From: Gemmatimonadales bacterium
Lineage (GTDB): Bacteria; Gemmatimonadota; Gemmatimonadetes; Longimicrobiales; Gaopeijiaceae
Assembly (NCBI GenBank): GCA_007695195.1
Contig: REEG01000152.1
Location: 1-64,000, forward strand
Reading direction: 5' to 3'
DNA: 64,000 nt
The position numbers were made by a program, and so were the translations under genes. How positions within the stretch are numbered: position 1 is the first letter of the stretch; each line of letters opens with the position of its first letter. The notes beneath the pieces are model-generated. The model saw nothing but the letters and a program-made list of their open reading frames with translations, searched no databases and was not told where the DNA came from. Below, one piece after another: positions 922 through 64,000 of the stretch.

Positions 922-953
922 ACGGCCCCACCGGCCGGATCCGGTGGGGCCGT
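922..953. terminator. Perfect 13-bp hairpin between convergent genes
   Basis: The left arm 922-934 (ACGGCCCCACCGG) is perfectly complementary to the right arm 941-953, with a six-base loop. It starts 13 bases after the PfpI-like stop and lies 25 bases from the end of the convergent membrane-protein gene. There is no T tract on either strand, so it could be a bidirectional stem for Rho-assisted stopping or mRNA 3'-end protection rather than a classical intrinsic terminator. Confidence 0.6.
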
Positions 954-977
954 TGGGGTTCGCCGAGGGGTCGGAGG

Positions 978-1244: not shown

Positions 1245-1448
1245 GACATCTCTCCGGAAGATCGGATGGGGATCGGGCGGTCCCGACACAGGGACTTCTC
1301 CCTTCCCTACGAATGGGAGGCGCCCAGGTTTCAACCTCGGACCCGCACCCCGTTCCCCAACCGTCCGGTCCCGACCCGTGCCACCTTCCACGACCACGGG
1401 TGACCATGGGATCTCCACCGCATCCTCCTCCCACCTCCCGGCCGTCTG

Positions 1449-2288: not shown

Positions 2289-2413
2289 TCGGCTTGCTCT
2301 CGGCATGGGGGTGGCTACATCGTTCGGTGCCCCGCCGCCCAGACGGCGGCCCTCGGACGCCGATCGTTCACCTCTGCGTCGGTTGATCAACACCCTTCTC
2401 CTGGAGACTCCGG

Positions 2414-3988: not shown

Positions 3989-4028
3989 GGGGGCGAGGTG
4001 GGATGTGGCGGGCGGGCTCCAGGCCTAC

Positions 4029-5825
4029 TCAGGTGGCCTGGGCCCCGCCCGCTCCCTCCCGGGCGGCCCCCACCAGATCCCCGGCACCCGCCGGAACGCC
4101 CCCCGTGGCCTTGGGCTTCGGCTCCTCCCCGTCCGGACCTCCCGTTTCTCCCCGCTCCCGCCCGATGAGGCGGTTGATGAGGACCACGGGGAGCAGTCCC
4201 ACCATCACGATGAGAAGGGCGGGGAGAGCCGATTCGGCCACCTGTTCATCCATGGCCAACTGGAAGGCCCGGGTGGCCAGGGTGTCGAAGTCGAAGGGGC
4301 GCAGGATCAGGGTGAGGGGGAGTTCCTTCAGGACATCCACGAAGACAAGGAGCCCGGCGGACAGCAGCGTCCCCTTCAGAAGCGGCACATTCACCCGTCG
4401 GAGGGTCCGGAGGGGCGGAGAGCCCAGGGAACGGGACGTCTCATCCAGATTCCCGCAGATCCGCTCGAACCCCGAGTCCACCGGATTCAGGGCCACCGCC
4501 AGGAACCGCACCACGTAGGCGAAGACCAGAGCCGCCACCGTCCCGGTGAGAAGAAGCCCCACCCCGGACCCGGTGATGGGGGCCAGGAGTTCGAGCAGCC
4601 TGCGATCCACCCAGATGAAGGGCACCAGCACCCCCACGGCGATCACCGCTCCCGGGATGGAGTAACCCAGCGACGATGCCCGCGACGCCAGGCGGAGAAG
4701 GGGCGTGGGCGAGAGGCGGACCGAATAGACGATGATAAGGGCCGCCGCCACGGCGATGAGGGCCGAGACGAGGGCGAGCCCGAAGGAGTTGAGGGCCAGC
4801 CAGAGGAAGCGCCGATCCAGCGCCTCGGGCACAACCTCCGCCGTCCACACCAGAAGCTGCCCCACCGGAACAACGAACCCCAACACCACGGGCACGGTGC
4901 ACGCCCCGGTGGCGAGCCAGGCCCGAGCCCCCCGAAGGCGAAAGGGAGCCACCGGGCGAAAGCGGCTGCTCCCGTGATCGAAGCGGGCCCGACCCCGCTG
5001 CGCCCGTTCCGCCAGGATGAGGAGGAAGACGAACGCCAGGAGGCAGGCCGAGAGGCGAATGGCCGAAGGGGTGTCGCCCAGGGAGAACCAGGCCCGGAAG
5101 ATCCCGGTGGTGAAGGTCGAGACGCCGAAGTACTTCACGGCACCGTATTCGTTCAGGACCTCCATGAGGACCAGGGTCACACCGGCCACCACGGCGGGGC
5201 GCGCCATGGGGAGGGCCACCTGGCGGAACGAAGCCCACCCACTCTTCCCCAGGATCCGTGACGTCTCCAGGATGCCGCCGGACTGCTTCAGGAAGGAGGC
5301 CCGGGTGATGAGGTAGACGTACGGGTACAGGACCAGGGAGAGGATGAAGACGGCCCCGGGCAGAGACATGAGACCGGTGCGAATGGATGCCGTGGTGACG
5401 GGATCCAGGAAGATCTGCAGCACGCCCTGCACCGGACCGGAGTGGGACAGGACCTCCGCGTAGGTGTAGGCCATGATGTAGGTGGGCATGGCCAGCGGGA
5501 GGATCAGTCCCGTCTCCAGGAAGCGCCGTCCGGGAAACTCACAGGTGGCCACCAACCACGCCGTCCCCACCCCGATGACCAGGGTCAGTACACCCACCCC
5601 CAGAGCCAGGATGGCCGAGTTGCCCAGATAGTCGGCCAGGACCGTGGAGGCCAGGTGCCTCCACGTATCGCTGGACTCCCCGAAGATCCCCAGAAGTACC
5701 GAGGCGAGGGGAAGAAGCACCAACGCCACGATGGCGAAGGTGACGAGGGTCCAGGGGGTGAGGTGGGCCCGGAGCCGGGGCCGGAAGCGGTCCCGGGCCC
5801 AGCCCCGGGAGAAGGCTATCGCCAT
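4029..5825 (-). CDS. Iron(III)-type ABC transporter permease (FbpB/ThiP-like, fused repeat)
   Basis: A 598-residue polytopic protein formed of two similar halves, each with about six membrane helices. Each half carries the EAA-type loop that docks the ATPase: one in ETSRILGKSGWASFRQVALP, a second in the C-terminal half starting ETSRSLGSPP. Fused double-domain permeases of this kind occur in FbpABC-type ferric iron and thiamine importers. The start overlaps the stop of the upstream binding-protein gene by 10 bases, showing translational coupling. No ATPase gene follows; the next gene is convergent. Confidence 0.88.
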   Translation of the reverse strand: MAIAFSRGWARDRFRPRLRAHLTPWTLVTFAIVALVLLPLASVLLGIFGESSDTWRHLASTVLADYLGNSAILALGVGVLTLVIGVGTAWLVATCEFPGRRFLETGLILPLAMPTYIMAYTYAEVLSHSGPVQGVLQIFLDPVTTASIRTGLMSLPGAVFILSLVLYPYVYLITRASFLKQSGGILETSRILGKSGWASFRQVALPMARPAVVAGVTLVLMEVLNEYGAVKYFGVSTFTTGIFRAWFSLGDTPSAIRLSACLLAFVFLLILAERAQRGRARFDHGSSRFRPVAPFRLRGARAWLATGACTVPVVLGFVVPVGQLLVWTAEVVPEALDRRFLWLALNSFGLALVSALIAVAAALIIVYSVRLSPTPLLRLASRASSLGYSIPGAVIAVGVLVPFIWVDRRLLELLAPITGSGVGLLLTGTVAALVFAYVVRFLAVALNPVDSGFERICGNLDETSRSLGSPPLRTLRRVNVPLLKGTLLSAGLLVFVDVLKELPLTLILRPFDFDTLATRAFQLAMDEQVAESALPALLIVMVGLLPVVLINRLIGRERGETGGPDGEEPKPKATGGVPAGAGDLVGAAREGAGGAQAT

Positions 5826-6880
5826 CCGGCCCGGTCGAAGATCCGCACCGCTTCGTTGTTCAACTCACCGAGCTGCGCCAGGGGAAGGGGATCGGACCGG
5901 AACTCCCCCCACGCCTGAAGCGTGGGCGCCCAGGCCACCCCGGGCCGGACCGGATACTCGAAGTTGGCTTCGGCGAAGGCGCGCTGCGCTTCTTCACTCA
6001 CGAGGAATTCGATGAGCTGCAGGGCATGGGCCCGATTGGGGGCGTGGGCCGTGACTCCGATTCCGGACACGTTGACGTGGGCTCCCCGGTCGTCCTGGTT
6101 GGGGAAGAGGATCCCCACCCGCTGTGCCAACTGCCGACTCTCGGCGTCTTCCGAGTTCAGGAGCCGTCCCACGTAGTAGGAGTTCACCAGCGCCACATCG
6201 CCGATCCCCGCCGCCACGTCCCGGATCTGATCGGTGTCGTTGCCCTGCGGCGCCCGAGCGAAGTTCGCCACCACGCCCTCGGCCCAGGCCTCGGCCTCTT
6301 CCACCCCCACGGCCGCCACCAGCGAAGCCATGTGGGAGATGTTGTAGATGTTCTCCGAGCTCCGGGCCACCACCCGTCCGGTCCACTCCTCGTCGGCCAG
6401 ATCCTCATAGCGCTCCAGGAGCTCCGGATCGACCCGGTCCCTGGCGTAGGCCACGATGCGCACCCGACGGGTCAGACCGTACCAGAACCCCTCCGGATCC
6501 CGGTAGTCCATGGGCACGGCCTCGTCCAGCAGATCGCTGGAGACGGGCTGGAGGAGGCCCCGCTCCCGGGCACGGTGCAAGCGACCCGCATCCACCGTGA
6601 TGAGGACATCGGCGGGGGAGGCCTGTCCTTCCCGCTCCAGGCGGGCGATGAGCTCATCCGCCGAGGCGCTCACCACTCGGACCCGGATGCCTGAAAGCTC
6701 GGTGAACCGCTGGAAGAGCGCCTCGTCGGTATCGTAATGACGATGGCTGTAGACATTCACCACCGGCTCCGACTCGTCCTGGCACCCCTGGAGGGAGAAT
6801 GCCAGAACCAGGGTTGGCACCAGGAGGAGGCTCCCCAGCACCCGACGAGCGGTCGGTCGGTTGGAAGGTGAGTGGATCAT
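5816..6880 (-). CDS. Ferric-iron-type substrate-binding lipoprotein (FutA/FbpA-like)
   Basis: A 354-residue periplasmic binding protein with a lipoprotein signal: a hydrophobic stretch ends in LQGC, with Cys33 as lipidation site. The mature part starts with NVYSHRHYDTDE and later has NSYYVGRL. These are the positions where FutA/FbpA proteins place the tyrosines that hold Fe(III). The start at 6880 has AAGGGA upstream; a 56-residue extension is rejected because it would swallow the promoter region with the palindrome at 6966-6986. It overlaps the permease gene, so the two are co-translated. Iron is the most likely substrate, inferred from motifs only. Confidence 0.88.
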   Translation of the reverse strand: MIHSPSNRPTARRVLGSLLLVPTLVLAFSLQGCQDESEPVVNVYSHRHYDTDEALFQRFTELSGIRVRVVSASADELIARLEREGQASPADVLITVDAGRLHRARERGLLQPVSSDLLDEAVPMDYRDPEGFWYGLTRRVRIVAYARDRVDPELLERYEDLADEEWTGRVVARSSENIYNISHMASLVAAVGVEEAEAWAEGVVANFARAPQGNDTDQIRDVAAGIGDVALVNSYYVGRLLNSEDAESRQLAQRVGILFPNQDDRGAHVNVSGIGVTAHAPNRAHALQLIEFLVSEEAQRAFAEANFEYPVRPGVAWAPTLQAWGEFRSDPLPLAQLGELNNEAVRIFDRAGWR

Positions 6881-6965
6881 GGTCCCTTGTTGGATCGAGA
6901 GGAAGGAGTCGGGCTGGATGCCGTCATCCTCCGTATGGACGGGGTCGGCAAATGGACGCCTGGTG

Positions 6966-6986
6966 GGTTGAGAACGAATCTCAACC
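6966..6986. promoter_or_regulatory. Fur-like palindromic operator before the iron uptake pair
   Basis: GGTTGAGA (6966-6973) and TCTCAACC (6979-6986) form a perfect 8-bp inverted repeat around ACGAA. The core TTGAGAACGAATCTCAA closely resembles Fur boxes of the TTGAGAATGATTCTCAA type. It lies about 86 bases upstream of the binding-lipoprotein start, in the only sizeable gap before that operon. Iron repression by a Fur-family regulator is inferred from motif and context. Confidence 0.6.
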
Positions 6987-7013
6987 AGTCCCGCCGAAAA
7001 ATCCAGACCGGCC

Positions 7014-7035
7014 CCGGCCCGCCGGGGCGGGCCGG
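7014..7035 (-). terminator. GC-rich hairpin after the SDR gene
   Basis: CCGGCCCGCC (7014-7023) and GGCGGGCCGG (7026-7035) form a very stable stem that begins 9 bases past the SDR stop codon on the minus strand. Five T residues follow on that strand, but about 14 bases after the stem, so termination may be imperfect. It separates the SDR gene from the iron operon promoter. Confidence 0.5.
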
Positions 7036-7044
7036 GCGGAGGCG

Positions 7045-7791
7045 TCACCCGTCACCCAGGGTCAGGGTCAGGGTCGCTCCGTTCACCACCCGTGCCCGAC
7101 CACCGGCGAGAAATACACAGACTGCCGCGATTTCCTGGGGTGGAATCCAGGTCGAGGTGTCGGCGTCGGGCATGGCGGACCGGTTCCCGGGCGTGTCGAT
7201 GATGGAGGGAAGGATGGCATTTGCGGTGATCCCGTGGCTGGCCCCCTCCCGGGCCAGCGCCTGGGTGAGGTTCAGCACGGCGGCCTTGGCGGCACCGTAG
7301 GCCGACATGCTCGCCGCCCCACCCCGCACGGCGGGGAAGGCGGAGACGTTCACGATTCGTCCCCACCCCCTGGCCTTCATGGCGGGGAAAGCCGCCCGCG
7401 AGGTCAGAAATGCCGTGGTGGCGTTCATGGCCATCATCCGTGACCAGGTGGAAGGATCGGTCTCTTCCACCGGAGCCATGGCGAATCCGCCTGCGAGGTT
7501 GAGCACCACATCCGGACCCCGGATTCCCCCCTGGTCCTGCTGTGTGGAGGTGTGGGAGGCCCGGATCACCCGGCTCACCACATCCGGATCCGTCAGGTCG
7601 GCATCGGGGTGGAACTTGACCCGATCCGAAGCCGCCCCCAGGAGGTCGTTCACAGCGTCGATCTCCGAGGGATCCAGAACGGGCACGTGAACGCGGGAGC
7701 CGGCCTCCACGAAGGACCGCACCACATGGCGGCCCAGGGCCCCCGTCCCACCGGTGACGAGAACGGTGCGTCGATCGAGTCCGTCGGTCAT
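7045..7791 (-). CDS. SDR family oxidoreductase
   Basis: A 248-residue classical short-chain dehydrogenase/reductase. The nucleotide-binding glycine motif TGGTGALG is at residues 13-20, NLAGG at 98-102 and Asn123 in the helix-4 position. The catalytic Ser150, Tyr165 and Lys169 (YGAAK) are all present. The cofactor cannot be assigned with confidence and the substrate is unknown. A strong AGAGAGGG site precedes the start. The gene is divergent from the aminopeptidase gene; the shared 244-bp gap 7792-8035 should hold both promoters, but I could not pick convincing hexamers. Confidence 0.85.
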   Translation of the reverse strand: MTDGLDRRTVLVTGGTGALGRHVVRSFVEAGSRVHVPVLDPSEIDAVNDLLGAASDRVKFHPDADLTDPDVVSRVIRASHTSTQQDQGGIRGPDVVLNLAGGFAMAPVEETDPSTWSRMMAMNATTAFLTSRAAFPAMKARGWGRIVNVSAFPAVRGGAASMSAYGAAKAAVLNLTQALAREGASHGITANAILPSIIDTPGNRSAMPDADTSTWIPPQEIAAVCVFLAGGRARVVNGATLTLTLGDG

Positions 7792-8035
7792 CTGCCCTCT
7801 CTTTGCTGAGTGATGGAGTGAGTGGGGTCCAGTGCCCCGGTTCCTCTCCGCGCCTTACACCGGGAGCCCGACGGGGTTGCCGGTGTACCTGCAGAAGGCC
7901 CGCCCCATGCCTTGCCCCGGGAACGCGGCACGGCCTACCTTTTCAGGCTTCCCGGATCGGTGGGCTTCAGCATCGCCGACCCTTCCCCGGGGCCCCGTAT
8001 CTACCCACACGCCACCTCCCGATCCAGGCTCCGCC

Positions 8036-9577
8036 ATGAGACTTCACTATCTGGCCGCATCTCCCTGGGACCAGGCCGCCGATCTTCTGGCCCTCGTCAT
8101 CTTCCAGCAGAATGGAGACGAAGGGTTGGACGAACCGGCCCTGGAACTCGATCGCCGGCTGGGCGGACTTCTTCGTCAGGCTCTGGACGATGGCGATTTC
8201 CGGGGTAGGGAAGAGGATCGCCTCGACTTCTTCCTCCCCGGCGCTACGCCTGGGCCACGTCGGGCGGTGATCCTGGGCGGAGGGAAGGTGGCAGAGGCCG
8301 ATGCCGATCTGGTGCGCCGCTGCGCCGGGCGCGCCGTTCGTGCCGCCGAGTCCCGGTCCCTTACCCGGGTCCACTTCGTCCTCCCGGACCGGAGCCACCT
8401 CCCCGCGTCCATCCCGGACGATGTGGCCGTGCAGGCGGCGGCAGAGGGGCTGGGCCTGGCCGCCTGGGACTTCCGGGAGCTCAAGGGCGCTCCCTCAAGT
8501 CCTGAGTCCGCGCCTCCCCCACTTCTGGAAGAGGGTTGGGTCCACGCTCCCTGGGAAGGGTCGGGGGATGTGGGTCCGCGGGCCGTGGAGGTGGCGGCCG
8601 CGGTGGTGGCGGGGCAGAACCTGGCGCGCGATCTCCAGTGGAGGCCCGGGAACATCGCAACACCCACCCACCTGGCCGAGGTGGCCCAGGAGCTGGGCAG
8701 GGAGCACGGTCTGGCTGTGCGGATCCTGGGACCTGCCGAGATGGAGGAGGAGAGGATGGGCGCCCTCCTCTCGGTCGCTCGCGGATCGGACCAGGAACCC
8801 CGGCTCATGGTCCTGGAGCATCGGGGCGGAGGCGATGAGGCTCCCCTGGCGCTGGTGGGGAAGGGGCTGACCTTCGACTCAGGGGGCATCTCCCTCAAGC
8901 CCGCCGCGGGGATGGAAGACATGAAGTACGACATGTCCGGAGGTGCGGCGGTGCTGGGGGCCATGAAGACCGTGGCCATGCTGGACCTCCCGGTGAATGT
9001 GGTGGGGGTGGTCCCCTCATCGGAGAATCTGGTGAACGGCTCGGCCAACAAGCCCGGCGACGTGGTCACCACCCGGGCCGGCAAGACGGTGGAGATCATC
9101 AATACCGATGCCGAGGGTCGCCTGATTCTCTGCGATGCCCTCTCCTGGGTGGTGGACCACCATGCGCCCCAGGCTGTGGTGGACTGCGCCACCCTCACCG
9201 GAGCCTGCGTAACGGCGCTGGGGCATCACGCGGCGGCGGTCATGGGTACCGACGAGACCCTCATCGACCAATTGCGATCTGCCGGGGACGCTTCGGGAGA
9301 GCGGTGCTGGCCCCTCCCCCTCTGGAAAGCGTACCGGAAACAGTTGGAAAGCCCCGTGGCCGACCTGAAGAATGTGGGAGGTCGCCCGGCCGGCTCCATC
9401 ACCGCGGGGTGGTTCCTGGCGGAATTCGTGGGAGACACGCCCTGGGCCCATCTGGACATTGCGGGGACGGCCTATGGAACCGAGGAGCTCCCCTATCAGC
9501 GGAAGGGTGGCTTCGGATTCCCCACACGCCTCCTGGTGGAATGGGTCAGGAGCCGGGCGGATCGGCGCCGGTCATGA
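8036..9577 (+). CDS. pepA: Leucyl aminopeptidase (M17)
   Basis: A 513-residue cytosolic di-metal aminopeptidase. The C-terminal catalytic domain has GKGLTFDSGG with Lys276 and Asp281, and the family signature NTDAEGRL at 356-363 with the metal ligands Asp358 and Glu360 and the bicarbonate-site Arg362. The N-terminal third is the variable PepA N domain. It releases N-terminal residues from peptides during turnover. Start 8036 gives the expected N-terminus MRLHYL; a 68-residue in-frame extension upstream is low-complexity. Its stop overlaps the start of the TonB-plug protein (ATGA), so the two are translationally coupled. Confidence 0.93.
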   Translation: MRLHYLAASPWDQAADLLALVIFQQNGDEGLDEPALELDRRLGGLLRQALDDGDFRGREEDRLDFFLPGATPGPRRAVILGGGKVAEADADLVRRCAGRAVRAAESRSLTRVHFVLPDRSHLPASIPDDVAVQAAAEGLGLAAWDFRELKGAPSSPESAPPPLLEEGWVHAPWEGSGDVGPRAVEVAAAVVAGQNLARDLQWRPGNIATPTHLAEVAQELGREHGLAVRILGPAEMEEERMGALLSVARGSDQEPRLMVLEHRGGGDEAPLALVGKGLTFDSGGISLKPAAGMEDMKYDMSGGAAVLGAMKTVAMLDLPVNVVGVVPSSENLVNGSANKPGDVVTTRAGKTVEIINTDAEGRLILCDALSWVVDHHAPQAVVDCATLTGACVTALGHHAAAVMGTDETLIDQLRSAGDASGERCWPLPLWKAYRKQLESPVADLKNVGGRPAGSITAGWFLAEFVGDTPWAHLDIAGTAYGTEELPYQRKGGFGFPTRLLVEWVRSRADRRRS

Positions 9578-11514
9578 CACCCCTTCCCGGAGCCGCCGTC
9601 TGGCTCTTCGTGTCCCTCCTGGTCCCCCAGGACGCTCCGGCCGCCGACACGCTGACGGTCCCGGATACCCTGGTACCGCCTGCCACAGAGGTGCTGGAAG
9701 AGGAGCCGGAGGAGGATGAGGACGTCCATGACGACGACGACCCGGTGGTGCCCAGGAACCTGCCTTCCCTCCCCAGACCCGTACCGGCGGAGTGGGGAAC
9801 GGGAGTCTGGGAGTGGGACCGGGAGGCCCTTGAATCCAGCCGTGCCCTGACCCTGGGAGAGCTCCTGGAGCATGTCCCCGGCCTGGTGGCGATTCGAGGC
9901 GGAGACCTGGGGCACCCCATGGCGGTCACCACCATGGGGGCCGGGCCGGGCCGGGTGCGCATCTTCGCCGATGGAGCCGAGCTGGCTCCCATGGACGGCG
10001 GGGTGGTGGATGTGACGCGGATCGGACTGGTGGGGCTCGACCGGATCCGGGTGGAACGGCGACCGGGGGAGCTCCGTGTCGAGATGGTGGGGATGCAGAT
10101 GGTGGACCCGCGCGTCTACTCCCTGGTGGAGGTGGGGACCGGCGACCTCCAGACCAATATGTTCCGGGGGACCTTCGCCCACCCGGACGCCATGGGCGGC
10201 AATGTGCTGCTGGCCCTGGACCGGGTGGATACCGACGGTCCGGCCCGGCAGGAGCGGGGAGCGGCCTTCGGCGTCCACCTGCGGCACACCCTGATCCGGA
10301 GTGATCGGGCGGGGTTGGCGTGGTCGGTGCGGCGCATGACCTCGAGGCGGCTGCCCTCTCTCTACCAACCCGGCGACGTGAACCGGAGCGACCTGAACCT
10401 GCAGGGGCGCTACCGGGTCCGGGACCACCTTCTGGCCGATGCTTTCGTCCACCGCTCGGCGGTGGCGCCCGGTGCGGAGGAGACCGATCCCGACAGTCTC
10501 ATCATGGATGAGGCACGAACGCAGGTCGGGCTTCGTCTCGCCATGGATCGAGGTGATTGGTGGGCCGAATCGGAGATTCGATTCCAGGGTGGTCCCGGTT
10601 GGGCCGACGAGGTCCAGGGCCTCCGGGCGGGAGGAATGATCCCCGGGTGGGTGGGGGCATCCGGGTCGGTGGAGCGCCAGGGGTGGGCCGATGAATCGGG
10701 CATCAATCTGCACGGGCGCATCTGGACCCGGCCGGTGGGAGGTCTGTCCTTCTTTGTGGAAGGGGAGTCGGGATCCCGCGCCGTGCCCTACTTCGTGGCC
10801 CCCCTCCCTCCGCCGGACCCGCAGCCCGAGAACGGGCCCGAGAACGGGGAAGAGGACGATCATACCGGGGAGGATCCGGACCCAGAGGAACCGGTGGATG
10901 AGCCGGAACCCCGAGCCCCCCCCCGCTTCGACGAATCCACCGCGTTCCGGGTCGGCGGCGAATTCCGCCGAGGAGGCCTGACCCTGGGGGCTGCCTTCCT
11001 GGCTGTGGAGCCCGATTCCCTCCGACCCACCGGACTTCCCTTCGACCGTGAGGGGGTGACGCTCCCCGGCACTCGCCGGACAGGGGTGGAGTTCCACGGA
11101 CGTGTCCCCCTCACGCGACTCCTGGATGGACTGGCCCTGACAGGTCAGGGGCAGATCTGGGATGAGGCCGAGGGGTGGAGCTACGGACCCGAGAAGAACT
11201 GGGACGTGGCGCTGCGCTACCACAACGTGTTCTTCGACACACGCAACCTGGAGATCTGGGGAGACGTGGGGATGCGAGGCCGGGGAGCCATGTGGGTACC
11301 CGAGGCCGGTGGCATGGGCGGGGGCCTGGACGCGCTCCAGCGGGTGCCGGTGAATCAGGCCTACTACGCCCGCATCCAGGCTCGGGTGGTTTCGGCTCGG
11401 ATCTTCATCCAGTGGGAGAATCTCAGTTTCCGCAGGGAGAATCAGGATATCCCCGGCCGGATCCTTCCCCAGACCCGAGCCATGTACGGCGTCAGATGGA
11501 CCCTCTGGAATTGA
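9574..11514 (+). CDS. Compact TonB-plug outer-membrane barrel protein
   Basis: A 646-residue exported protein with a short signal-like N-terminus, then a strongly acidic segment (residues 41-56, mostly Glu and Asp). A TonB-receptor-like plug follows (LGELLEHVPGLVAIRGG near residue 95). The rest alternates in the manner of beta strands and ends in an aromatic strand, MYGVRWTLWN, typical of outer-membrane barrels. A second acidic, Pro-rich insert lies at about residues 410-454 and would form a surface loop. At this length it has fewer strands or shorter loops than usual TonB receptors. The substrate is unknown. It overlaps pepA by four bases. Confidence 0.75.
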   Translation: MTPLPGAAVWLFVSLLVPQDAPAADTLTVPDTLVPPATEVLEEEPEEDEDVHDDDDPVVPRNLPSLPRPVPAEWGTGVWEWDREALESSRALTLGELLEHVPGLVAIRGGDLGHPMAVTTMGAGPGRVRIFADGAELAPMDGGVVDVTRIGLVGLDRIRVERRPGELRVEMVGMQMVDPRVYSLVEVGTGDLQTNMFRGTFAHPDAMGGNVLLALDRVDTDGPARQERGAAFGVHLRHTLIRSDRAGLAWSVRRMTSRRLPSLYQPGDVNRSDLNLQGRYRVRDHLLADAFVHRSAVAPGAEETDPDSLIMDEARTQVGLRLAMDRGDWWAESEIRFQGGPGWADEVQGLRAGGMIPGWVGASGSVERQGWADESGINLHGRIWTRPVGGLSFFVEGESGSRAVPYFVAPLPPPDPQPENGPENGEEDDHTGEDPDPEEPVDEPEPRAPPRFDESTAFRVGGEFRRGGLTLGAAFLAVEPDSLRPTGLPFDREGVTLPGTRRTGVEFHGRVPLTRLLDGLALTGQGQIWDEAEGWSYGPEKNWDVALRYHNVFFDTRNLEIWGDVGMRGRGAMWVPEAGGMGGGLDALQRVPVNQAYYARIQARVVSARIFIQWENLSFRRENQDIPGRILPQTRAMYGVRWTLWN

Positions 11515-54754: not shown

Positions 54755-57551
54755 ACCCAGGCTCCTCCGCTTTCTCGGGGGGATGCGGGGCCGGATGATC
54801 CTGGGGGGCTTCCTGGTCCTCCTCTTCGTCCTTCTCTTCATCCGGTGGGGCATCGCCCTCTACGTGGACCGCCTCTGGTTCGCGGCGGAAGGGGCATCCG
54901 CCGTCTTCACCACCCGACTCCTCTGGGAGTGGGGAGGGCGTCTTGGCGCCGGGTTCCTGGTGGGCATCCTCACCTGGGTGAACATGGATGTGGTCCTCAA
55001 AACCTTCAGCGGGATCCAGATCCGGCGGCGGGTGGGCGACCTGGTCATCCAGGAGCAGCTTCCCAACAGCTACATTCGCTGGGGCATGGGTGCTCTGTCA
55101 GCGCTGGTGGCGCTCTGGTTCGCCGCAGCGATTCCGCAGGGAACGGGGCTCCGATTCCTTCTCCTGCTGAACGCGCCCTCGTGGGGCATGGCCGAGCCGA
55201 TCTTCGGTCGGGATCTGGGCTTCTACCTGTTCCTTCTGCCGGTCCTGCAGGGGATCCTCACCTTCGGCATCGTGGTGACGGTCTTCCTGGCCATCATGGT
55301 GGTGGCGGGCTACTCGGCCACCGGCGCCATCGAGTGGGGTGGAGGTCAGATCCGCGTCCGTGACCAGACCCGGGTGCACCTGGGCGTCCTGGGATCGGTC
55401 TTCCTCTTTCTCCTGGCGGCCCGATTCCATCTGGCGCCGTACGGCCTGCTCCTGGACGGGAACTCGGCGGTCCAGGGCATCTTCGGCTACGCCGATGAGA
55501 ATGCCCGTATTCCCGCATACCGGTTCCTCACTTTCCTGGCCATGGCCGCCACGGCGGCCACCATCTGGTCCACCGTGCAGCGCCGACTCCTGCCGGCAAC
55601 ACTGTCGGTGGCGGCGCTGGGCATCGGAATCGTGGTGGCCGGCCAGGTGATCCCCTCCCTGGTGCAACGCTTTCAGGTGCAGCCCAACGAACTGGCTCGG
55701 GAGCGTCCCTACATCGAACAGGCCGTGGCCTTCACCCGGGAAGGCTTCGACCTGGCGGACCTGCAGCGGTCCCTCCACCCGTACCAACTTCCGACCCGGG
55801 AAGACTGGGATGTGATTCCGGACCGGCTGGACCGGCTCCCTGTGTGGACCGATCGGACCCTCCTGGCCACCTTCCGCCAGCTCGAGGCCCGCTTCGAGTA
55901 CTTCGACTTCCACCGGGTGGGGTTCAACCGCTACGACGGCCCCCGAGGGTTGGAGCCTGTGGCCGTCTCGGTCCGCGAGATCGATCCCAACCGGATCCCG
56001 GACCCGAACTGGCAGAACCTCCACCTCCGGGAACGCTTCATCTCGGGGCTGGGGGCGGTGGCTGGACAACTCAACCGACAGGACGGAAACGGCCGGCTTC
56101 CCGTCTTCCTGGGCGGTATTCCGCCCGAGTTCCGGGAAGAACTGGATCCTCCGCCGGCAGTCCGCCTGACCCGGCCCCAGGTTCACATCGGGAGCACACC
56201 CCAGCTCTACGCGGTCATCAACCCCACCGAGGAGTCCTTTCTCGCCCCGGATGGGAGCGCCGGTGTTCCCGGCGTCGACTTCCCGGAAGGGATTCTCATG
56301 GGATCCATCTTCCGGACCGCCCTACTGGCCTGGCACCTGCGGGACCCCAACCTCCTCTTCGCCGCCGAGGTGGAGCGGGACAGCCGGTTCGTCTTCCGCA
56401 GAGAGGTGCGGGAACGGGTGAATGCCCTGGCCCCCTTCCTCTTCCTGCCGGAGGAGCCCTACCCGGTCATCGTGGACGGCCGCATCGTCTGGATCCTGGA
56501 AGGGTTCACGGTAAGCCGAACGTTCCCCCTATCCACCGCCCATGCGGTGGACAATCGCCGCTCGGCCCGATACATGAGGAACTCGGTGAAGATCACGGTG
56601 GACGCCGTGACGGGCCGCACCGACCTGTACGCCGCCGATCCCGACGACCCGCTGCTTCAGGCCTACCGGGGCGCCTTTCCCACCCTCTTCCGCGAGTTGG
56701 ATGAGATGCCGCCGGAGCTGGCCCAGCACCTGCGCTACTCCACTCGTCTCCTGGATATCCAGAGCCGGGTCCTCCTCCAGTACCACCAGGAAGATCCAGC
56801 GGTCTTCCACGGACAGCAGGAGCGGTGGTCCGTCGCCACCGAACTGGCCTTCGACACCCGTCCGGTCCCCTACCGCCCCACCTACTCGTTCCTGACACTG
56901 CCTGGGGAAGAGGACGAGACGTTCGTCCTCTCCACCGTGTTCGTGCCCCAGGGAAGGGAGAACCTGGCGTCGTTTCTGGCCGGCCGCTGGAATCCCGGTG
57001 AGGGCCCGGAACTCCTCCTCTGGGACGTTCCGGTGGAGAGCCAGGTCCGGGGCCCTCGCCAGATCGAGGCACTCATCGAGCAGGATCCGGACATCTCCCA
57101 GCAGTTCTCACTCTGGCGTCAGGGAGGTAGCCAGGTCTGGACCGGACACCTCCATCTGGTGCCGGTTGGGAACACCCTCATCTACATGGAGCCCATCTTC
57201 CTGGCGGCGGACTCCGACGCCATCCCGGAGATTCGCCGATACGTGGTGAGTGACGGTCAACGGGTCGTCATGCACCCGTCCCTGCGGGGAGCCGTGGCCG
57301 GGCTCGCCCTGGGCTTGGAAGGGGTCGCCGACGGGGCCGTACCCGACCTGGTGGAGGGGGAACTGGCAGACCTGGTCCCCGAGGAGGTGCTGGAGCGTAT
57401 GGGCCAGGCCGGAGCCAACGAGGCCCTTCGCCTCCTGGAGCAGGCCGAGGAGCGCCTCCGTGCAGGGGACTGGGAAGGGTTCGGACGGAATCTGGGAGAC
57501 CTTCGGGATCTCCTGCGCAGACAGGCCGGCTCCGGCGGGGGGTCTCCTTGA
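54747..57551 (+). CDS. UPF0182 family large membrane protein
   Basis: A 934-residue protein of the COG1615/UPF0182 family, whose function is unknown. The first 300 residues hold about seven membrane helices, with the family pattern YVDRLWFAAEGASAVFTTR after the first helix. The remaining 630 residues form a large soluble part, probably periplasmic, with INPTEESFL-type and Tyr/Arg-rich segments and a short helical tail rich in Glu, Leu and Gly. It overlaps the mutase gene, a coupling that hints at a cell-envelope sugar role, but that is only inference. Confidence 0.88.
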   Translation: MAEPRLLRFLGGMRGRMILGGFLVLLFVLLFIRWGIALYVDRLWFAAEGASAVFTTRLLWEWGGRLGAGFLVGILTWVNMDVVLKTFSGIQIRRRVGDLVIQEQLPNSYIRWGMGALSALVALWFAAAIPQGTGLRFLLLLNAPSWGMAEPIFGRDLGFYLFLLPVLQGILTFGIVVTVFLAIMVVAGYSATGAIEWGGGQIRVRDQTRVHLGVLGSVFLFLLAARFHLAPYGLLLDGNSAVQGIFGYADENARIPAYRFLTFLAMAATAATIWSTVQRRLLPATLSVAALGIGIVVAGQVIPSLVQRFQVQPNELARERPYIEQAVAFTREGFDLADLQRSLHPYQLPTREDWDVIPDRLDRLPVWTDRTLLATFRQLEARFEYFDFHRVGFNRYDGPRGLEPVAVSVREIDPNRIPDPNWQNLHLRERFISGLGAVAGQLNRQDGNGRLPVFLGGIPPEFREELDPPPAVRLTRPQVHIGSTPQLYAVINPTEESFLAPDGSAGVPGVDFPEGILMGSIFRTALLAWHLRDPNLLFAAEVERDSRFVFRREVRERVNALAPFLFLPEEPYPVIVDGRIVWILEGFTVSRTFPLSTAHAVDNRRSARYMRNSVKITVDAVTGRTDLYAADPDDPLLQAYRGAFPTLFRELDEMPPELAQHLRYSTRLLDIQSRVLLQYHQEDPAVFHGQQERWSVATELAFDTRPVPYRPTYSFLTLPGEEDETFVLSTVFVPQGRENLASFLAGRWNPGEGPELLLWDVPVESQVRGPRQIEALIEQDPDISQQFSLWRQGGSQVWTGHLHLVPVGNTLIYMEPIFLAADSDAIPEIRRYVVSDGQRVVMHPSLRGAVAGLALGLEGVADGAVPDLVEGELADLVPEEVLERMGQAGANEALRLLEQAEERLRAGDWEGFGRNLGDLRDLLRRQAGSGGGSP

Positions 57552-57576
57552 TCGCCCCGGGAGCCCCCTCTAGCTT
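57548..57576 (+). promoter_or_regulatory. Promoter for sucCD
   Basis: TTGATC (57548-57553, overlapping the UPF0182 stop) is 17 bases from TAGCTT (57571-57576). The leader to sucC would be about 120 bases. I see no clear structure in that leader. Confidence 0.55.
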
Positions 57577-57704
57577 CAGCAGGCTATGGATCCGGCATTC
57601 GGACCATGGCACCATCGTCAGCATCCCGTCGCCCACCTCCTCGAGGCGTGCCGCCCCGGAACCGGCGGCGTGACGGCACCTCAAATCATCCACAGAGAGA
57701 TCGC

Positions 57705-58841
57705 ATGGATATCCACGAATACCAGGCGAAGGAGCTCTTCCGCGCCGCAGGGATTCCCGTCCCACCTGGCCGGGTCGCCACCTCTCCCGACGAGGCACGG
57801 CAGATCGCCCAGGAGTTGGGCGGGAAGGTGGTGGTCAAGGCTCAGGTCCACTCCGGAGGTCGGGGCAAGGCCGGCGGTGTGAAGCTGGCCTCTTCCCCCG
57901 ACGAGGCCGCCACCCATGCCGGCGCCATCCTGGGGATGTCCATCCGGGGGCTCGAGGTGAAGCGGGTGCTGGTGACGGTGGCGGAAGACATCGCCTCCGA
58001 GGCCTACGTGGGGATCCTGGTGGACCGGACCACGCAGCGGCCCATGTTCATGGTCTCCGCCGAGGGTGGGGTGGATATCGAGGAGGTGGCAGCCACGAAC
58101 CCCGATGCCATCCGGAAGCTGCGGGTGGATCCCCGGTACGGGCTCCTCCCCCACCAGGCTTACGGACTGGCCAACTTCCTCTACACGGACCCCGCGCAGG
58201 TGAAGCAGGCCACACGCATCATGGCCCAGCTCTACGAGGCCTTCATTGGGAATTCCTGCTCCCTGGCGGAGATCAACCCCCTCATCGTCACGCCGACAGG
58301 GGAGGTGAAGGCCATCGATGCCAAGGTCAGCATCGATGAGAGCGCCCTCTTCCGGCTCCCTGAAGTGGAGGCACTCCGGGACCTGGATGCGGAACCGGCT
58401 GCCGAGACCCTGGCCCGGGAAGCCGGCCTCTCCTTCGTGAAGCTCGACGGAAATGTGGGCTGCTGCGTGAACGGGGCCGGCCTGGCCATGGCGACCATGG
58501 ATCTGGTGAAGACCTACGGCGGTGAGCCGGCCAACTTCCTGGACATCGGAGGATCGTCCAATCCCGACAAGGTGGTGGCGGCCCTGGAGATCATCACCGC
58601 CGACCCCAACGTCAAGGCCATCCTCTTCAACATCTTCGGCGGCATCACCCGTTGCGATGATGTCGCCACGGGGATCGTGGAGGCCTCCCGCCGGATCCGC
58701 ATCGACACCCCCATCGTCATCCGTCTCACCGGCACCAACGAGGCGGAAGCGCTGGAAATCCTTGCGGAGGCCGGATTCTCGGCCTTCACCGGCATGGATG
58801 AGGTGGTCCAGAAGGCTGTGGACCTGGCGGCCCAGGCCTGA
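57705..58841 (+). CDS. sucC: Succinyl-CoA synthetase beta subunit
   Basis: A 378-residue subunit with an N-terminal ATP-grasp domain. [29 protein letters not shown] and the metal site in [12 protein letters not shown] are typical, as is the C-terminal [11 protein letters not shown] power helix region. It makes ATP or GTP from succinyl-CoA. GAGAGA precedes the start. It is 28 bases from sucD. Confidence 0.96.
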
Positions 58842-58869
58842 CCCGAACCCCACACGGAGAGTAACGCAG

Positions 58870-59757
58870 ATGTCGATCTTCATTGATGATTCGACCCGCC
58901 TCGTCGTTCAGGGGATCACGGGACGCGATGGTTCCTTCCACACGAGCCAGATGCTGGAGTACGGCACCCGGGTGGTGGCTGGTGTCACCCCGGGGAAGGG
59001 GGGACAGCACTTCACCGCCCTCAACGGTGATCGGGTTCCCATCTTCAACACGGTGGAAGAAGCCGTGGCCGAGGAAGGCGCCAACACGTCCGCCATCTAT
59101 GTGCCGCCCGCCTTCGCCGCCGGCGCCATTATGGAGTCCGCCGACGCCGGCATCCATTTCATCGTGGCCATCACCGAAGGGATTCCGGTGCTGGACATGA
59201 CCCGCGCAGCCCAGTTCGTGAAGGATCGGGGGGCACGGCTCCTGGGACCCAACTGCCCTGGAGCCATCTCTCCGGGTACCGCCAAGGTGGGGATCATTCC
59301 AGGGCAGATCACCACGCCGGGGCCGGTGGGCGTGGTCTCACGCTCCGGAACCCTCACCTACGAGGCGGTGGCACAGCTCACCGCCGCCGGAATCGGCCAG
59401 ACCACCTGTGTGGGAATCGGCGGGGATCCGGTGATCGGCACCGACTTCATCGATACCCTGCGGGCCTTCGGGGAAGATCCCGACACCGAGGCGGTGGTGA
59501 TGATCGGGGAGATCGGTGGCACCGACGAACAGGAGGCGGCGGCCTGGGCACGGGAGCACCTCCAGATTCCGGTGGTGGGATTCATCGCCGGCCAGACCGC
59601 CCCGCCCGGACGCCGCATGGGGCACGCCGGCGCCATCATTTCCGGTTCCTCGGGTACGGCCGAAGAGAAGATCAGGGCCTTCGAGGAGAACGGGATCGCG
59701 GTGGCGCGGCGGCCCGTGGACATCCGCGATCTGGTTCGGGAATGTCTCGGCGCGTAG
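58870..59757 (+). CDS. sucD: Succinyl-CoA synthetase alpha subunit
   Basis: A 295-residue CoA-binding subunit. The CoA motif [10 protein letters not shown] is at residues 17-26, NCPGAISPG in the middle, and the phosphorylated His252 in [13 protein letters not shown]. Forms the enzyme with SucC; together with mdh and sdhCAB it places four TCA enzymes in this window. Confidence 0.96.
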
Positions 59758-59815
59758 GCCTTCGAATCGGGCCGCCGGTCCGAACCTTCCCCTTCCGGGC
59801 TCACAGGCGGACCCC

Positions 59816-60679
59816 GTGAAGCTGGGAGATCTCCTCTTCGCCGAGAGGATCCGGATTCCGCTCCGGGCCCGGACCCTCAGGGACGCCGTCCTGGAGACGG
59901 GCACCCTGTTCGGGCCGACGGAGGGATCTCCCTTCGGGGGATCGGCATACCTTCAACTCGGGGCCAGCCCGTCGGGGCTGACACGCATGGGATCGGCCAC
60001 CGATCCGGGCCGTACCCGGGAGCCGTCCATCGCACTGGGGGTAGCCCCCCGGCCGCTGGAGGTGGAAGGCCTCTCCGAGGGCGAGACCGGACCACGCATC
60101 ATCCTCCTGGTACTCCTCCCGGTGGGGGTTGAGCGGGACGTGCGGTTCCGTATGGAAGCGGCCTTTTCCCATTCTGAGACCGAGGCGGCCATCCTGAGGA
60201 GTGGTAGCTCCGAGCAGCTTCTGGGACTCCGGAGACTCACCGAAATCGAACTCAAGGCCGCACTCCGGGTGGAGGATGTGATGGAGCCGGTGAGCTACCG
60301 GATCTACGCGGATACGCCGCTGGACGAGGTGCTGGATCTCATCGTGCGCCGCCGTCTCTCCACGGTCCCGGTGGTAGGGGAGGGTCTCCAGGTGCGGGGG
60401 ATCATCACCGCCGATGAGATCCTCCGGTACGCCCTGCGCTCCGCCGGCTCCCGACCGAAGCCCGGAGAGAATCCGCCTCTGGCCAGTGATGTCATGAGCC
60501 GCTCGGTCATGTGTGTCTCCGATGATGAACTCCTGGATGACGCGGCCCAACTCATGGCCAACCGCCACGTAGACCAACTCCCGGTAGTCCGGGACGGCGA
60601 GTTCGTCGGCTTCCTCAAGAGGGAAGACGTCCTGTCGGCGCTCTTCGGGCCGGCCGAGGTGGATGGCGGGAGAGACTGA
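59816..60679 (+). CDS. Fused PTS IIA-like (no active His) and CBS-pair protein
   Basis: A 287-residue protein. Residues 1-150 follow the pattern of fructose/mannitol-type PTS IIA domains (LGDLLFAERIRIPL at the start, SIALGVAPRPLEV, IILLVLLP, then a leucine-rich helix ending ELKAAL). The spot where IIA proteins have the phosphorylated His in a PHTR-type motif has none. Residues 152-210 and 225-280 are two CBS domains (VMEPVSYRIYADTPLDEVLDL and VMSRSVMCVSDDELLDDAAQ), which usually bind adenosine nucleotides. A GTG start at 59816 is chosen at the first conserved residue. It follows sucD by 58 bases. Confidence 0.7.
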   Translation: MKLGDLLFAERIRIPLRARTLRDAVLETGTLFGPTEGSPFGGSAYLQLGASPSGLTRMGSATDPGRTREPSIALGVAPRPLEVEGLSEGETGPRIILLVLLPVGVERDVRFRMEAAFSHSETEAAILRSGSSEQLLGLRRLTEIELKAALRVEDVMEPVSYRIYADTPLDEVLDLIVRRRLSTVPVVGEGLQVRGIITADEILRYALRSAGSRPKPGENPPLASDVMSRSVMCVSDDELLDDAAQLMANRHVDQLPVVRDGEFVGFLKREDVLSALFGPAEVDGGRD

Positions 60680-60805
60680 CCCTCCCGGACCTCCGCCATC
60701 ACCCAGCAGCCCCCCTGGCATGGGGGCGGGGTGGACTCCCGAACGGTTTCCGGATGCCTTCCGGGCCCGTTCCACACTCAAGTTCAATCGAAAGGTACCG
60801 ATCCA

Positions 60806-61225
60806 ATGAACCATACGTTGGCCATCATCAAGCCCGACGCCGTCGCCTCCCACAAGGCCGGCGCCATCCTGGCACACCTGGAGAAGGGGGGGTTCCGCGT
60901 GCGCGCCCTTCGGATGACCCGTCTGAATCCGGAACAGGCCCGCGCCTTCTATGCCGTCCACAGCGAGCGTCCCTTCTTCGAGTCGCTGGTGTCCTTCATG
61001 ACGTCGGGACCGGTGATTCCCATGGTCCTGGAGGCCGAGGGAGCGGTCCCGAAGCTGCGGGAAGCCATCGGCGCCACCGATCCGGCCGAGGCCGCCGAGG
61101 GCACCATCCGGGCACTTCATGCCGAGTCCAAGGAGCGCAACGCCATCCACGCCTCCGATTCGGATGAGAACGCCCGGAACGAAATCGCATTCTTCTTCAG
61201 CCAGTTCGACCTCCTCGGTCTCTGA
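60806..61225 (+). CDS. ndk: Nucleoside diphosphate kinase
   Basis: A 139-residue enzyme that balances nucleoside triphosphates. The catalytic His115 is in RNAIHASDS; the N-terminal LAIIKPDAVA and FYAVHSERPFF are also conserved. Its place after sucCD is common, as Ndk uses their nucleotide product. A small hairpin (GCCCCC 60709-60714, GGGGGC 60722-60727) lies in the 126-base gap upstream. Confidence 0.97.
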   Translation: MNHTLAIIKPDAVASHKAGAILAHLEKGGFRVRALRMTRLNPEQARAFYAVHSERPFFESLVSFMTSGPVIPMVLEAEGAVPKLREAIGATDPAEAAEGTIRALHAESKERNAIHASDSDENARNEIAFFFSQFDLLGL

Positions 61226-61274
61226 CCGGCTGCTCAGTACCCGGTTCTCCCTTCGTCCAGGCAACGGACCGCTC

Positions 61275-62261
61275 ATGGAAGACCCCACACTCTCTCCAGT
61301 CCAGAAAGTCGCCGTCATCGGCGCCGGAGCCGCAGGTCGCGGCGTCGCCCGAGCCCTGGCGGAAGCCGGGATCGATGTGCTTCTGGTGGAACGGGATTCC
61401 GAGACCCTCGAACGCCGGATGAAGGCTCTCCGGGAAGGGATGAACCGGGACATCGCCCGCTGGTCCATGACCGAGTCCGAACGGAATGCGACCCTATCCA
61501 GGATCCGGGGAATGGCAGGAATCCCCGATCTACGTGGCGTACCCATGGTCTTCGATTGCGCCACCGAGGACCTCAAGGAGAAGAAGGAGCTCCTGAGGGA
61601 GCTGGACCGCCGGGCCCCGCCCGGATGCCTCTTCCTCCTCAATACCTCGACGCTCTCCATCAGCACCCTGGCTGGATCCGTGTCCGAGGCTCGCAGGGAA
61701 GACTTCCTTGGGCTCCACTTCCTTCATCCTGTGTCCCGGATTCCCCTGGTGGAGCTGGTGCGGGGCCGGGATACCACGGACCGGGCCGTGGAGTTGGCCC
61801 GTAACCTGGCGAAGCGGCTCGGGAAGGAGGTCCTGGAGGTGGCGGAGTACCCTGGATACGTGACGAGCCGCCTTACGCTGACGCTCATCAACGAAGCCAT
61901 CCACCTGGTCATGGAGGGCGTTACCACCCGGGATGCCCTGGACCGGGCAATGAAGCTCCGTCTGGGCTCCACCCACGGCCCCCTGGCTCTGGCTGATGAG
62001 ATCGGTCTCGACTCCATCTTCCGTTCGCTGGAGGCGCTCTGGCAGGGACTCGGGCTCACCCAGTATCGGCCTGCGCCCCTCCTTCGTCGTATGGTGAACG
62101 AAGGATGGCTGGGCGAGAAGACGGGGCGCGGGTTCTACCTGTACGACGAAACGGGGAAACGGCTCAATGGGAAGGAGGAGATGATCCGTCCGCCCCTGGA
62201 ACGGCTCCTTGAGCCTGAGGGGGTTGCAGTGGGCGGAAACTCCACGGGGGATGGGCAATGA
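61275..62261 (+). CDS. 3-hydroxyacyl-CoA dehydrogenase family protein
   Basis: A 328-residue NAD-dependent enzyme of the 3-hydroxybutyryl-CoA dehydrogenase type. The Rossmann motif VIGAGAAGRGVA starts near residue 14 with Glu39 after the second strand. The catalytic Ser (NTSTLSI), His (LHFLHPV) and Asn (TLINEAIH) are present, and the C-terminal domain has GFYLYDETGK. It acts in beta-oxidation or butyrate-type metabolism; FadB fusion partners are absent. Its stop overlaps ackA by four bases, so the two are coupled. Confidence 0.9.
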   Translation: MEDPTLSPVQKVAVIGAGAAGRGVARALAEAGIDVLLVERDSETLERRMKALREGMNRDIARWSMTESERNATLSRIRGMAGIPDLRGVPMVFDCATEDLKEKKELLRELDRRAPPGCLFLLNTSTLSISTLAGSVSEARREDFLGLHFLHPVSRIPLVELVRGRDTTDRAVELARNLAKRLGKEVLEVAEYPGYVTSRLTLTLINEAIHLVMEGVTTRDALDRAMKLRLGSTHGPLALADEIGLDSIFRSLEALWQGLGLTQYRPAPLLRRMVNEGWLGEKTGRGFYLYDETGKRLNGKEEMIRPPLERLLEPEGVAVGGNSTGDGQ

Positions 62262-63454
62262 AGGTCCTGGTGCTCAATTCCGGCTCGTCATCCGTCAAGT
62301 ACCAGGTCATGGACACGGAGACGGAGCGGCCCCTGGTGACCGGGCTGGTGGAGCGCATCGGCAGCGGCGTGGCCATCCTGACGCAACACAGGCTCTCGGA
62401 CGGTGCCCGGATCAAGCAGTCTGGGTCCATCCTGGACCATCGGGATGCGGTGGGCGCCGTCCTGGACCTTCTCCGGGATCCCGAGAAGGGAGCGTTTTCC
62501 GGGACCGACGGTCCGGACGCCGTGGGACACCGCGTGGTCCATGGCGGTGAAGCCTTCACCGGCTCCGTTCGAATCGACGATCAGGTGGAAGACAGTATCC
62601 GCGACTGCATTGAACTGGCCCCCCTTCACAACCCGGCCAACCTGGCAGGCATCGTGGCGGCCCGCTTCCGTCTTCCGGACGTTCCCCACGTGGCCGTGTT
62701 CGACACCGCCTTCCACGCCACCCTTCCACCCCATGCGTTCCATTACGCCCTCCCGTACGTCCTGTATCGGCGCTACCGGATCCGCAGGTACGGCTTCCAT
62801 GGCACCAGCCACCGGCATGTGGGACGGCGCGCGGCTGAACTCCTGGGCCGGTCTCCCGAAGAGTTGCGGATCATTTCCCTCCACCTGGGAAATGGAGCTT
62901 CGGCGTGTGCCATCGCCGGCGGAAAGTCCGTGGACACCTCCATGGGATTCACCCCACTGGAAGGACTCGTCATGGGAACGCGATCAGGAGATCTGGACCC
63001 GGCGGTGGTCCTTCACGTCATGGCAAGGGAAGAGCTTTCGGCGGGAGACGCAGGGGCCATGCTGAACAAGCATTCCGGGCTCCTGGGGCTGTCCGGCATC
63101 TCCGGCGACATGCGGGATCTGGTGGAAGAGGAAGCGACCTCGGATCGGGCCCGTCTGGCACTGGACGTCTACGCCTATCGCATACGCAAGTACGTGGGTG
63201 CCTACGCCGCGGCCATGGGCGGTGTCGACGCCATCGCTTTCACCGGTGGCATCGGAGAGAACTCCGCCGCCATCCGGGCCCGGGCGCTCCAGGACCTGGG
63301 ATTCCTCGGGGTTGAGATCGACTCGGAGAGGAACCAGGAACTCACCGGCGGAGAGGAGGGTTCCTTCCAGGCCGGATCGGTGGATCTCCTGGTGATCCGA
63401 AGCGGTGAAGAGGTGACCATCGCTCGGGAAACGGAGCGGGTCCTCACTTCCTGA
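62258..63454 (+). CDS. ackA: Acetate kinase
   Basis: A 398-residue enzyme making ATP and acetate from acetyl phosphate. LVLNSGSSSVKYQ at the N-terminus, the HRVVHGGEAF loop, FDTAFHATLP, FHGTSHRHV, LHLGNGASACAI and FTGGIGENS are all diagnostic; the catalytic Asp is in FDTAFH. The phosphotransacetylase gene (pta) is not in this window. Confidence 0.96.
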   Translation: MKVLVLNSGSSSVKYQVMDTETERPLVTGLVERIGSGVAILTQHRLSDGARIKQSGSILDHRDAVGAVLDLLRDPEKGAFSGTDGPDAVGHRVVHGGEAFTGSVRIDDQVEDSIRDCIELAPLHNPANLAGIVAARFRLPDVPHVAVFDTAFHATLPPHAFHYALPYVLYRRYRIRRYGFHGTSHRHVGRRAAELLGRSPEELRIISLHLGNGASACAIAGGKSVDTSMGFTPLEGLVMGTRSGDLDPAVVLHVMAREELSAGDAGAMLNKHSGLLGLSGISGDMRDLVEEEATSDRARLALDVYAYRIRKYVGAYAAAMGGVDAIAFTGGIGENSAAIRARALQDLGFLGVEIDSERNQELTGGEEGSFQAGSVDLLVIRSGEEVTIARETERVLTS

Positions 63455-63461
63455 TGAAGGA

Positions 63462-63504
63462 TTGACACAACCCGTTTGCAGGCGGATCTTTCAAGGTCTA
63501 TGCT
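63462..63504 (+). promoter_or_regulatory. Possible promoter at the DUF177 gene
   Basis: A perfect TTGACA (63462-63467) lies 8 bases after the ackA stop. With normal spacing its second hexamer is GATCTT, a weak match. TTTGCA (63475-63480) with TATGCT (63499-63504) is another possible pair, but would overlap the start codon at 63500. One of them may drive the gene or one further downstream. Confidence 0.3.
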
Positions 63505-64000
63505 TACGGTATCCTTGACGGAGCTCGATCGGACAGGACCGATCCGGTTGCGCGACGAGATCTCCGGCGACGATCCACTCTGGTCCGACTGGGCCGGTGA
63601 ATTGATTTCGCCGGTCAGTGTGGACGTGAAGGTCTCGGCCACGCCCACGGGACAGGTTGTGGCCCTGGGACGCTTCCAGGCTCGCCTGGGCCGGGAGTGC
63701 AGGCGCTGCCTCGAACCGGTGGAAGTGTCGCTGGACGAGGAACTGACTCTGCTCTGGGTCCCCCCGGACCGCCGGCGGGGAGCGCCGTCCGATACCGACG
63801 AGAATGAAGGTGTTCGCCAGTTGGATCCTGTGGGAGACCAGTTGGACCTGAGCCCGGCGATCCGGGAAGAGGTGGTCCTTGCGGCCCCCGTGTTCGTGAC
63901 CTGCAGGGATGACTGCCGCGGACTGTGTCCGGTCTGCGGCATCAACCTGAACCAAGAAACCTGTGACTGTGACCCGGATGAGCCGGATCCCCGCTGGGAT
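63500..64000 (+). CDS. DUF177 (YceD family) protein, cut off at window end
   Basis: The frame from ATG 63500 is open for 167 codons to the window edge, so the gene is partial at its 3' end. Two cysteine pairs stand out: CRRC followed by LEPVEVSLDEE, the core motif of DUF177, and a C-terminal zinc-like group (CRDDCRGLCPVCGINLN and CDCD). YceD/DUF177 proteins are tied to ribosome and 23S rRNA biogenesis and are nearly always followed by rpmF (L32), then the plsX/fabH lipid genes. I expect rpmF just outside the window. Confidence 0.88.
   Translation, partial: MLTVSLTELDRTGPIRLRDEISGDDPLWSDWAGELISPVSVDVKVSATPTGQVVALGRFQARLGRECRRCLEPVEVSLDEELTLLWVPPDRRRGAPSDTDENEGVRQLDPVGDQLDLSPAIREEVVLAAPVFVTCRDDCRGLCPVCGINLNQETCDCDPDEPDPRWD

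Follow-up and report, generated by a model that had tools for sequence, protein, structure and literature searches.

PtsN (EIIA-Ntr), a soluble regulator of the PTS_EIIA_2 type (PF00359), acts by binding other proteins. According to a review, PtsN-type domains do so mostly in the unphosphorylated state, have partners as diverse as TrkA, KdpD, GlmS, and pyruvate dehydrogenase, and include an E. coli form that, when unphosphorylated, fished out SucC (PMC13104625). The AcuB protein of Bacilli (Bateman + ACT) places a CBS pair first and a small interaction domain, ACT, second, and is encoded near an acyl-CoA synthetase; it is described as a sensor of AMP or energy charge whose AMP-bound form inhibits the deacetylase AcuC (PMC13121692), or as a protein with Ap4A as its ligand (PMC13039410). 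The stand-alone CBS proteins DarB and CbpB also control partner enzymes through binding, and DarB is reported to act on Rel.

We analyzed a gene that joins both kinds of module. In the window, i.e., the whole 64,000-nucleotide stretch of contig REEG01000152.1 from a Gemmatimonadales bacterium, an open reading frame on the forward strand (59816-60679, stop included; coding positions 59816-60676) encodes a 287-residue protein with an EIIA(Ntr)-type domain followed by a CBS pair. Its GTG start aligns with the ATG or GTG starts of relatives, indicating that the reading frame is real. The neighboring genes, named from their sequences, lie on the same strand and confirm the earlier note in placing the fusion between sucCD and ndk. 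Upstream are the genes for the succinyl-CoA synthetase beta subunit (sucC, 57705-58841, with a start of our choosing) and alpha subunit (sucD, 58873-59757), the latter with an intact phosphohistidine motif (GHAGAI, His252) and ending 58 nt before the fusion gene. Following a 126 nt gap is the nucleoside diphosphate kinase gene ndk (60806-61225), with its active-site His115 intact, and then a 3-hydroxybutyryl-CoA dehydrogenase-like gene and ackA (together 61275-63454, also named from their sequences). The latter two genes also follow ndk in the window's genus and several relatives (e.g., L041, L082, L093, L096, L143), and the cluster can thus take in further energy enzymes. The gap between the fusion gene and ndk showed no RNA structure above shuffled sequences (z = 0.22), an Rfam scan of the window gave no match, and a crude-consensus search of positions 57000-64000 for terminator-like sites found none on the forward strand and two on the reverse strand. 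The genes of this cluster are presumably co-transcribed.

The N-terminal domain (residues 1-146, 59816-60253, forward strand) is predicted to adopt the EIIA fold. An AlphaFold2 model of the protein, computed from 43 sequences (the window's and those of homologous loci), had a pLDDT of 90.7. When its residues 1-144 were compared with solved structures by VIA-align, IIA-Ntr (PtsN) 1a6j was the closest EIIA fold among the matches listed (Z 16.3, rmsd 2.4 Å, 137 residues aligned), with further matches to 3urr, 4gqx, 2a0j, and 3oxp (Z 15.5-15.9); for a His-bearing orthologue, the model built on a separate alignment of that protein matched 1a6j with Z 18.8 over 146 residues. The earlier note had read this half as IIA-shaped and had proposed comparing residues 1-150 with EIIA-Fru and PtsN, and the predicted fold is indeed IIA-like. 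On single-sequence searches, the N-terminal half matched neither PF00359, even with E values allowed up to 1, nor any NCBIfam model. The Pfam score for EIIA declines along a series: 15 of 43 family members reach E ≤ 0.01 against PTS_EIIA_2, the best of them 5.8e-18, the His-less proteins L106, L113, and L127 match at 9.4e-6, 1.2e-3, and 5.6e-3 (the seven other proteins in that scan had no match or one with E above 0.03), and the window protein has none. Nevertheless, a profile built from the N domains of 16 His-less proteins, with no His-bearing row, matched the PtsN-type chains 2a0j (E 5.1e-6, positions 4-150) and 3oxp (E 1.9e-5), and His-less and His-bearing orthologous N domains aligned end to end in hhalign (probability 99.7, E 1.1e-25). 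The EIIA assignment, which escaped single-sequence Pfam, is therefore settled by the agreement of profiles and model, and the alignments point to common descent of the window's N domain with the His-bearing EIIA domain in the same gene position. A shorter, very divergent N domain is seen in one group of family members, L107, L114, L116-L119, L121, L123-L126, L129, L130, L132, and L133. Unlike PtsN, the window protein lacks the active-site His, is fused to a CBS pair, and is encoded within a sucCD-ndk cluster; a separate, His-bearing PtsN-like EIIA is encoded in the same genome (L159).

The loss of the phosphorylated His, which the earlier note had claimed, is evident from the alignments. In the His-bearing proteins of the order, the strand has the sequence LPHxRT-DAV; that of the window protein reads TRMGSAT, and the His position falls on S60 in one alignment set and on A61 in two others (codons 60-61, Ser and Ala, 59993-59998, forward strand), a non-His residue both ways. 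The earlier note had named, as one observation that would speak against this claim, a His conserved elsewhere in the domain; we looked for one within the genus and found none. H119, the only His of the EIIA domain encoded in the window, has no counterpart in any of the genus's four other genomes: L004 has no His there, and the others have theirs at 54/144 (L005), at 84/96 (L006), or at 148 (L007). A reading by eye that equated residues 75-81 (GVAPRPL) with the motif GVAIPH was dropped, as the family alignment puts this stretch after the His strand.

We compared 107 full-length proteins from one class of Gemmatimonadota, leaving out 13 CBS-only places and L056, which is cut by a contig end. The His is kept in 71 of the 72 proteins outside the window's family (f1) and in only one of the 35 within it (L051). 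In the other 34, the site is occupied by Leu (10), Ala (7), Ile (4), Asp (4), Gly (3), Ser (2), Val (2), Thr (1), or Phe (1). The sole full-length His-less protein outside f1, L210 (genome G252, family f6), has Tyr at the site (LLYFRT). On a FastTree phylogeny of the 107 CBS regions, which has few columns and for which no root was inferred, the His label requires two changes, compared to a mean of about 29 for shuffled labels; this agrees with a single loss inside f1 and another in L210. The change ran from His to His-less, since His is both the general state of EIIA domains and the state of the eight other families. As an orthologous gene, the fusion occurs throughout the class, and nearly all proteins outside f1 bear the His; the condition in which the protein is unlikely to pass phosphate, as the earlier note had suggested, is therefore derived and belongs to this one family. 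The genome of the His-keeping f1 member (G040) also contains a second, more distant sucCD pair (L161, contig 84); neither the fusion gene nor ndk was found in the stretch fetched around it.

The C-terminal half is a clear CBS pair, as the earlier note had recognized. It is the sole Pfam match of the window protein (E 4.8e-25, 88.1 bits against a cut-off of 24, in two stretches), and in VIA-align the model from about residue 148 onward matches CBS pairs, CBSX2 and AcuB ranking near the top. The AcuB chains, at Z 16.5-17.5 and 18-22% identity, belong to the best matches listed for this half, and the DarB/CbpB structures 6yj8 and 8acu match at 14-16% identity; the NCBIfam CbpB model scored 39.7, against a cut-off of 125. 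Unlike AcuB, the protein carries its EIIA domain first and ends soon after the second CBS motif, and no deacetylase gene was seen adjoining it; unlike DarB and CbpB, it has an EIIA domain.

In CBS pairs that bind adenylates, an S/T-x-x-D/E motif forms the ribose site, with the acid binding the ribose; CBS pairs are also known to bind SAM, c-di-AMP, and Ap4A. The first CBS motif of the window protein (about residues 148-206, 60257-60433, forward strand, boundaries approximate) has this signature as T198-x-x-E201, while in the second (residues 223-277, 60482-60646, forward strand, the best Pfam CBS stretch) Lys replaces Thr, giving K268-x-x-D271. At the first site, the acid is present in 69 of 72 His-bearing proteins and in 33 of the 35 that are His-less. 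At the second, where it lies three residues after the S/T, it is present in 68 of 72 His-bearing but only four of 35 His-less proteins; the window protein, unlike most His-less members, keeps it. Because a single event lies behind nearly all of the His-less proteins, the joint change of His and second CBS site counts as one observation. We therefore rejected it as proof of linked function, a pairing that is also broken by L210, which keeps the acid of the second site.

The position of the gene is fixed across the class. Our main survey covered 97 genomes, including the window's own; matches of some kind turned up in 89, many of them to CBS proteins that are unrelated, and 76 places in 76 genomes were accepted at E ≤ 4e-17. 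In all 76, ndk lies downstream on the same strand, and sucD lies upstream in 75, the exception (L056) ending at a contig edge. Among the remaining genomes, 15 contain sucD without the fusion gene and six gave no SucD match at E ≤ 1e-40. By state, the 91 loci comprise 30 His-bearing, 32 His-less, 13 CBS-only, one cut by a contig end, and 15 without the gene. A second survey matched 142 genomes, from which 62 loci (17 in genomes already counted) and five weak ones were examined. The 45 further genomes represent six of the class's families; ndk was present in 45 and sucD in 44, the exception (L177) starting at a contig edge; the five weak CBS-only matches (L225-L229) were discarded as other CBS proteins, with sucC, sucD, and ndk all absent from the fetched stretches. 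A contig scan overlapping the main survey, and hence left out of these counts, gave 65 loci with ndk in 65 and sucD in 63; all were titled as Gemmatimonadota or a subgroup of it except L099, which is titled Chloroflexi and has the same neighbors. The gene is thus found between sucD and ndk in nine families, and both the fusion and its context, whose conservation had been proposed as a check, are kept. Nevertheless, neither the gene nor its EIIA domain is indispensable, given the 15 gene-less loci and the 13 CBS-only forms.

We tentatively propose, at a little under even chances, that the fusion protein is a regulatory adaptor of succinyl-CoA synthetase, perhaps together with Ndk, that ancestrally combined PTS and adenylate control and that in the window's family retains the adenylate input. 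The regulated step would be the substrate-level phosphorylation of the TCA cycle, with the EIIA(Ntr)-type domain serving as the binding face and the CBS pair as the adenylate sensor. In the ancestral form, which most of the class retains, phosphate would reach the EIIA His by way of EI and HPr, and adenine nucleotides would be bound at the two CBS sites, such that the protein would read two inputs, PEP or nitrogen status and energy charge. In f1, loss of the His and of the usual second CBS motif would fix the EIIA domain in an unphosphorylated-like state, and the remaining CBS1-type site would gate binding. The most likely target would be SucC/SucD, or a complex of these with Ndk, whose activity the adaptor might either raise or lower. 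A regulator of a partner protein, as first suggested, remains the most sensible role, with the identity of the partner being our conjecture. The proposal draws on the gene order, the predicted folds, the direction of the His loss, the retention of the first CBS acid, the purifying selection on the N domain, and the presence of EI and HPr in the genome.

Several precedents are consistent with an adaptor of this kind. The fishing of SucC by PtsN, the work reportedly of Gravina 2021, would be matched here by the binding that we propose. In Pseudomonas, nucleoside diphosphate kinase is said to form a complex with succinate thiokinase. Binding of NDPK to succinate thiokinase is cited in PMC4668074. 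In E. coli, NPr and Ndk are both substrates of one phosphohistidine phosphatase, SixA (PMC12934123), which links the relay to Ndk. For the sensor, AcuB is an example of a Bateman protein that tunes an acyl-CoA synthetase system by energy charge (PMC13121692, PMC13039410). Other points count against an adaptor role, among them the dispensability of the gene and of its EIIA domain, the nearly single event behind the change of His and second CBS site, the atypical second CBS motif of the window protein, and the range of ligands that CBS pairs bind. The sucC-sucD-ndk adjacency exists without the gene, the three genes lying in direct succession in all 15 gene-less genomes with sucD, so the gene might be no more than a passenger in a stable operon. 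In addition, the N domain is the fast-evolving half, which is unusual for a conserved binding face: with the window protein as reference, identity to three genus mates is 39-43% in the N domain and 64-70% in the CBS half. It is unlikely, in our estimate, that a still more specific scheme holds throughout the class, namely an operon-encoded two-input switch on succinyl-CoA synthetase whose His reads the PEP-driven relay (or phosphate from SucD or Ndk) and whose two CBS sites read adenylates, with the window's family as a natural phospho-dead, one-input energy-charge switch in which His and second nucleotide site disappeared during a single stretch of evolution.

A rival reading, also unlikely, is that the protein is a nucleotide sensor acting on Ndk or on another protein, such as Rel, a transporter, or a transcription factor, and that the sucCD neighborhood reflects shared expression rather than a complex. 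The action of DarB on Rel and the breadth of PtsN partners would both allow this, and the gene directly downstream is ndk at every accepted place in the main survey. However, a general regulator would not require so tight a placement as the slot between sucD and ndk, which stays fixed across nine families.

It is improbable that the His-less N domain is a decaying, functionless remnant and that the CBS pair alone works. The 13 CBS-only forms among the 76 places and the divergence of the window's N domain past Pfam detection would fit such decay, but the EIIA fold is predicted with high confidence and 34 full-length f1 proteins retain the His-less domain. Moreover, we estimated dN/dS separately for the two halves by the Nei-Gojobori method, with some pairs near synonymous saturation. 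Six His-less pairs gave 0.21, 0.39, 0.25, 0.26, 0.28, and 0.12 for the N domain and 0.06-0.22 for the CBS half; four His-bearing pairs gave 0.14-0.46 and 0.03-0.50, respectively, the highest values coming from a pair (L057/L033) that is odd in both halves. The His-less N domain is therefore constrained, more loosely than the CBS half, and such values argue against its decay.

The adaptor proposal holds that f1 has lost its PTS input. EI and HPr are each present in 85 of the 97 genomes, and the window's genome (G000) encodes EI, an HPr that retains its His (LGMHARP), and a further EIIA whose PHCR motif is intact; the His loss is therefore not due to the disappearance of the relay. One locus of this genome (L159, contig 62, positions 1-10000) contains EI, HPr, the His-bearing PtsN-like EIIA, and open frames that we take, from their motifs, to be of the mannose-type IIA/IIB/IIC kind, all within 10 kb. 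Another (L160, contig 115, 2171-4792) is an 874-residue open frame with a second PF00359 domain at its end and a seemingly membrane-embedded N-terminal part, perhaps an antiporter-EIIA fusion. Among the 15 gene-less genomes (L144-L158), seven lack both EI and HPr, compared to two of the 76 genomes that have the gene. We set aside the association between absence of the gene and absence of EI and HPr as support, because close relatives carry most of its signal. It is very improbable that the EIIA domain is still phosphorylated on another residue, or docks HPr and reads its state while unphosphorylated: EI and HPr do occur in the genomes of 30 of the 32 His-less loci and EI is more often absent from gene-less genomes (7/15 vs. 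2/76, Fisher p = 2.4e-5, uncorrected for kinship), but no residue is conserved at the His site in f1 and the link to EI is not significant once kinship is allowed for (five independent pairs, median p = 1).

Both halves of the protein are of known kinds; what is new is that they are fused, that the fusion holds a constant position at sucCD-ndk, and that one family has lost the phosphosite. Our searches of the open-access literature found no paper on an EIIA-CBS architecture at sucCD-ndk, nor was a dedicated protein regulator of succinyl-CoA synthetase among the open-access papers listed. To our knowledge, no such regulator of the bacterial enzyme is known. If the adaptor proposal is true, a single protein would combine a PTS-type domain with a nucleotide sensor at the point where the TCA cycle carries out substrate-level phosphorylation. 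The class, with its His-bearing, His-less, CBS-only, and gene-less relatives, offers a comparative series in which a phosphorylation switch may be followed as it becomes a ligand switch.
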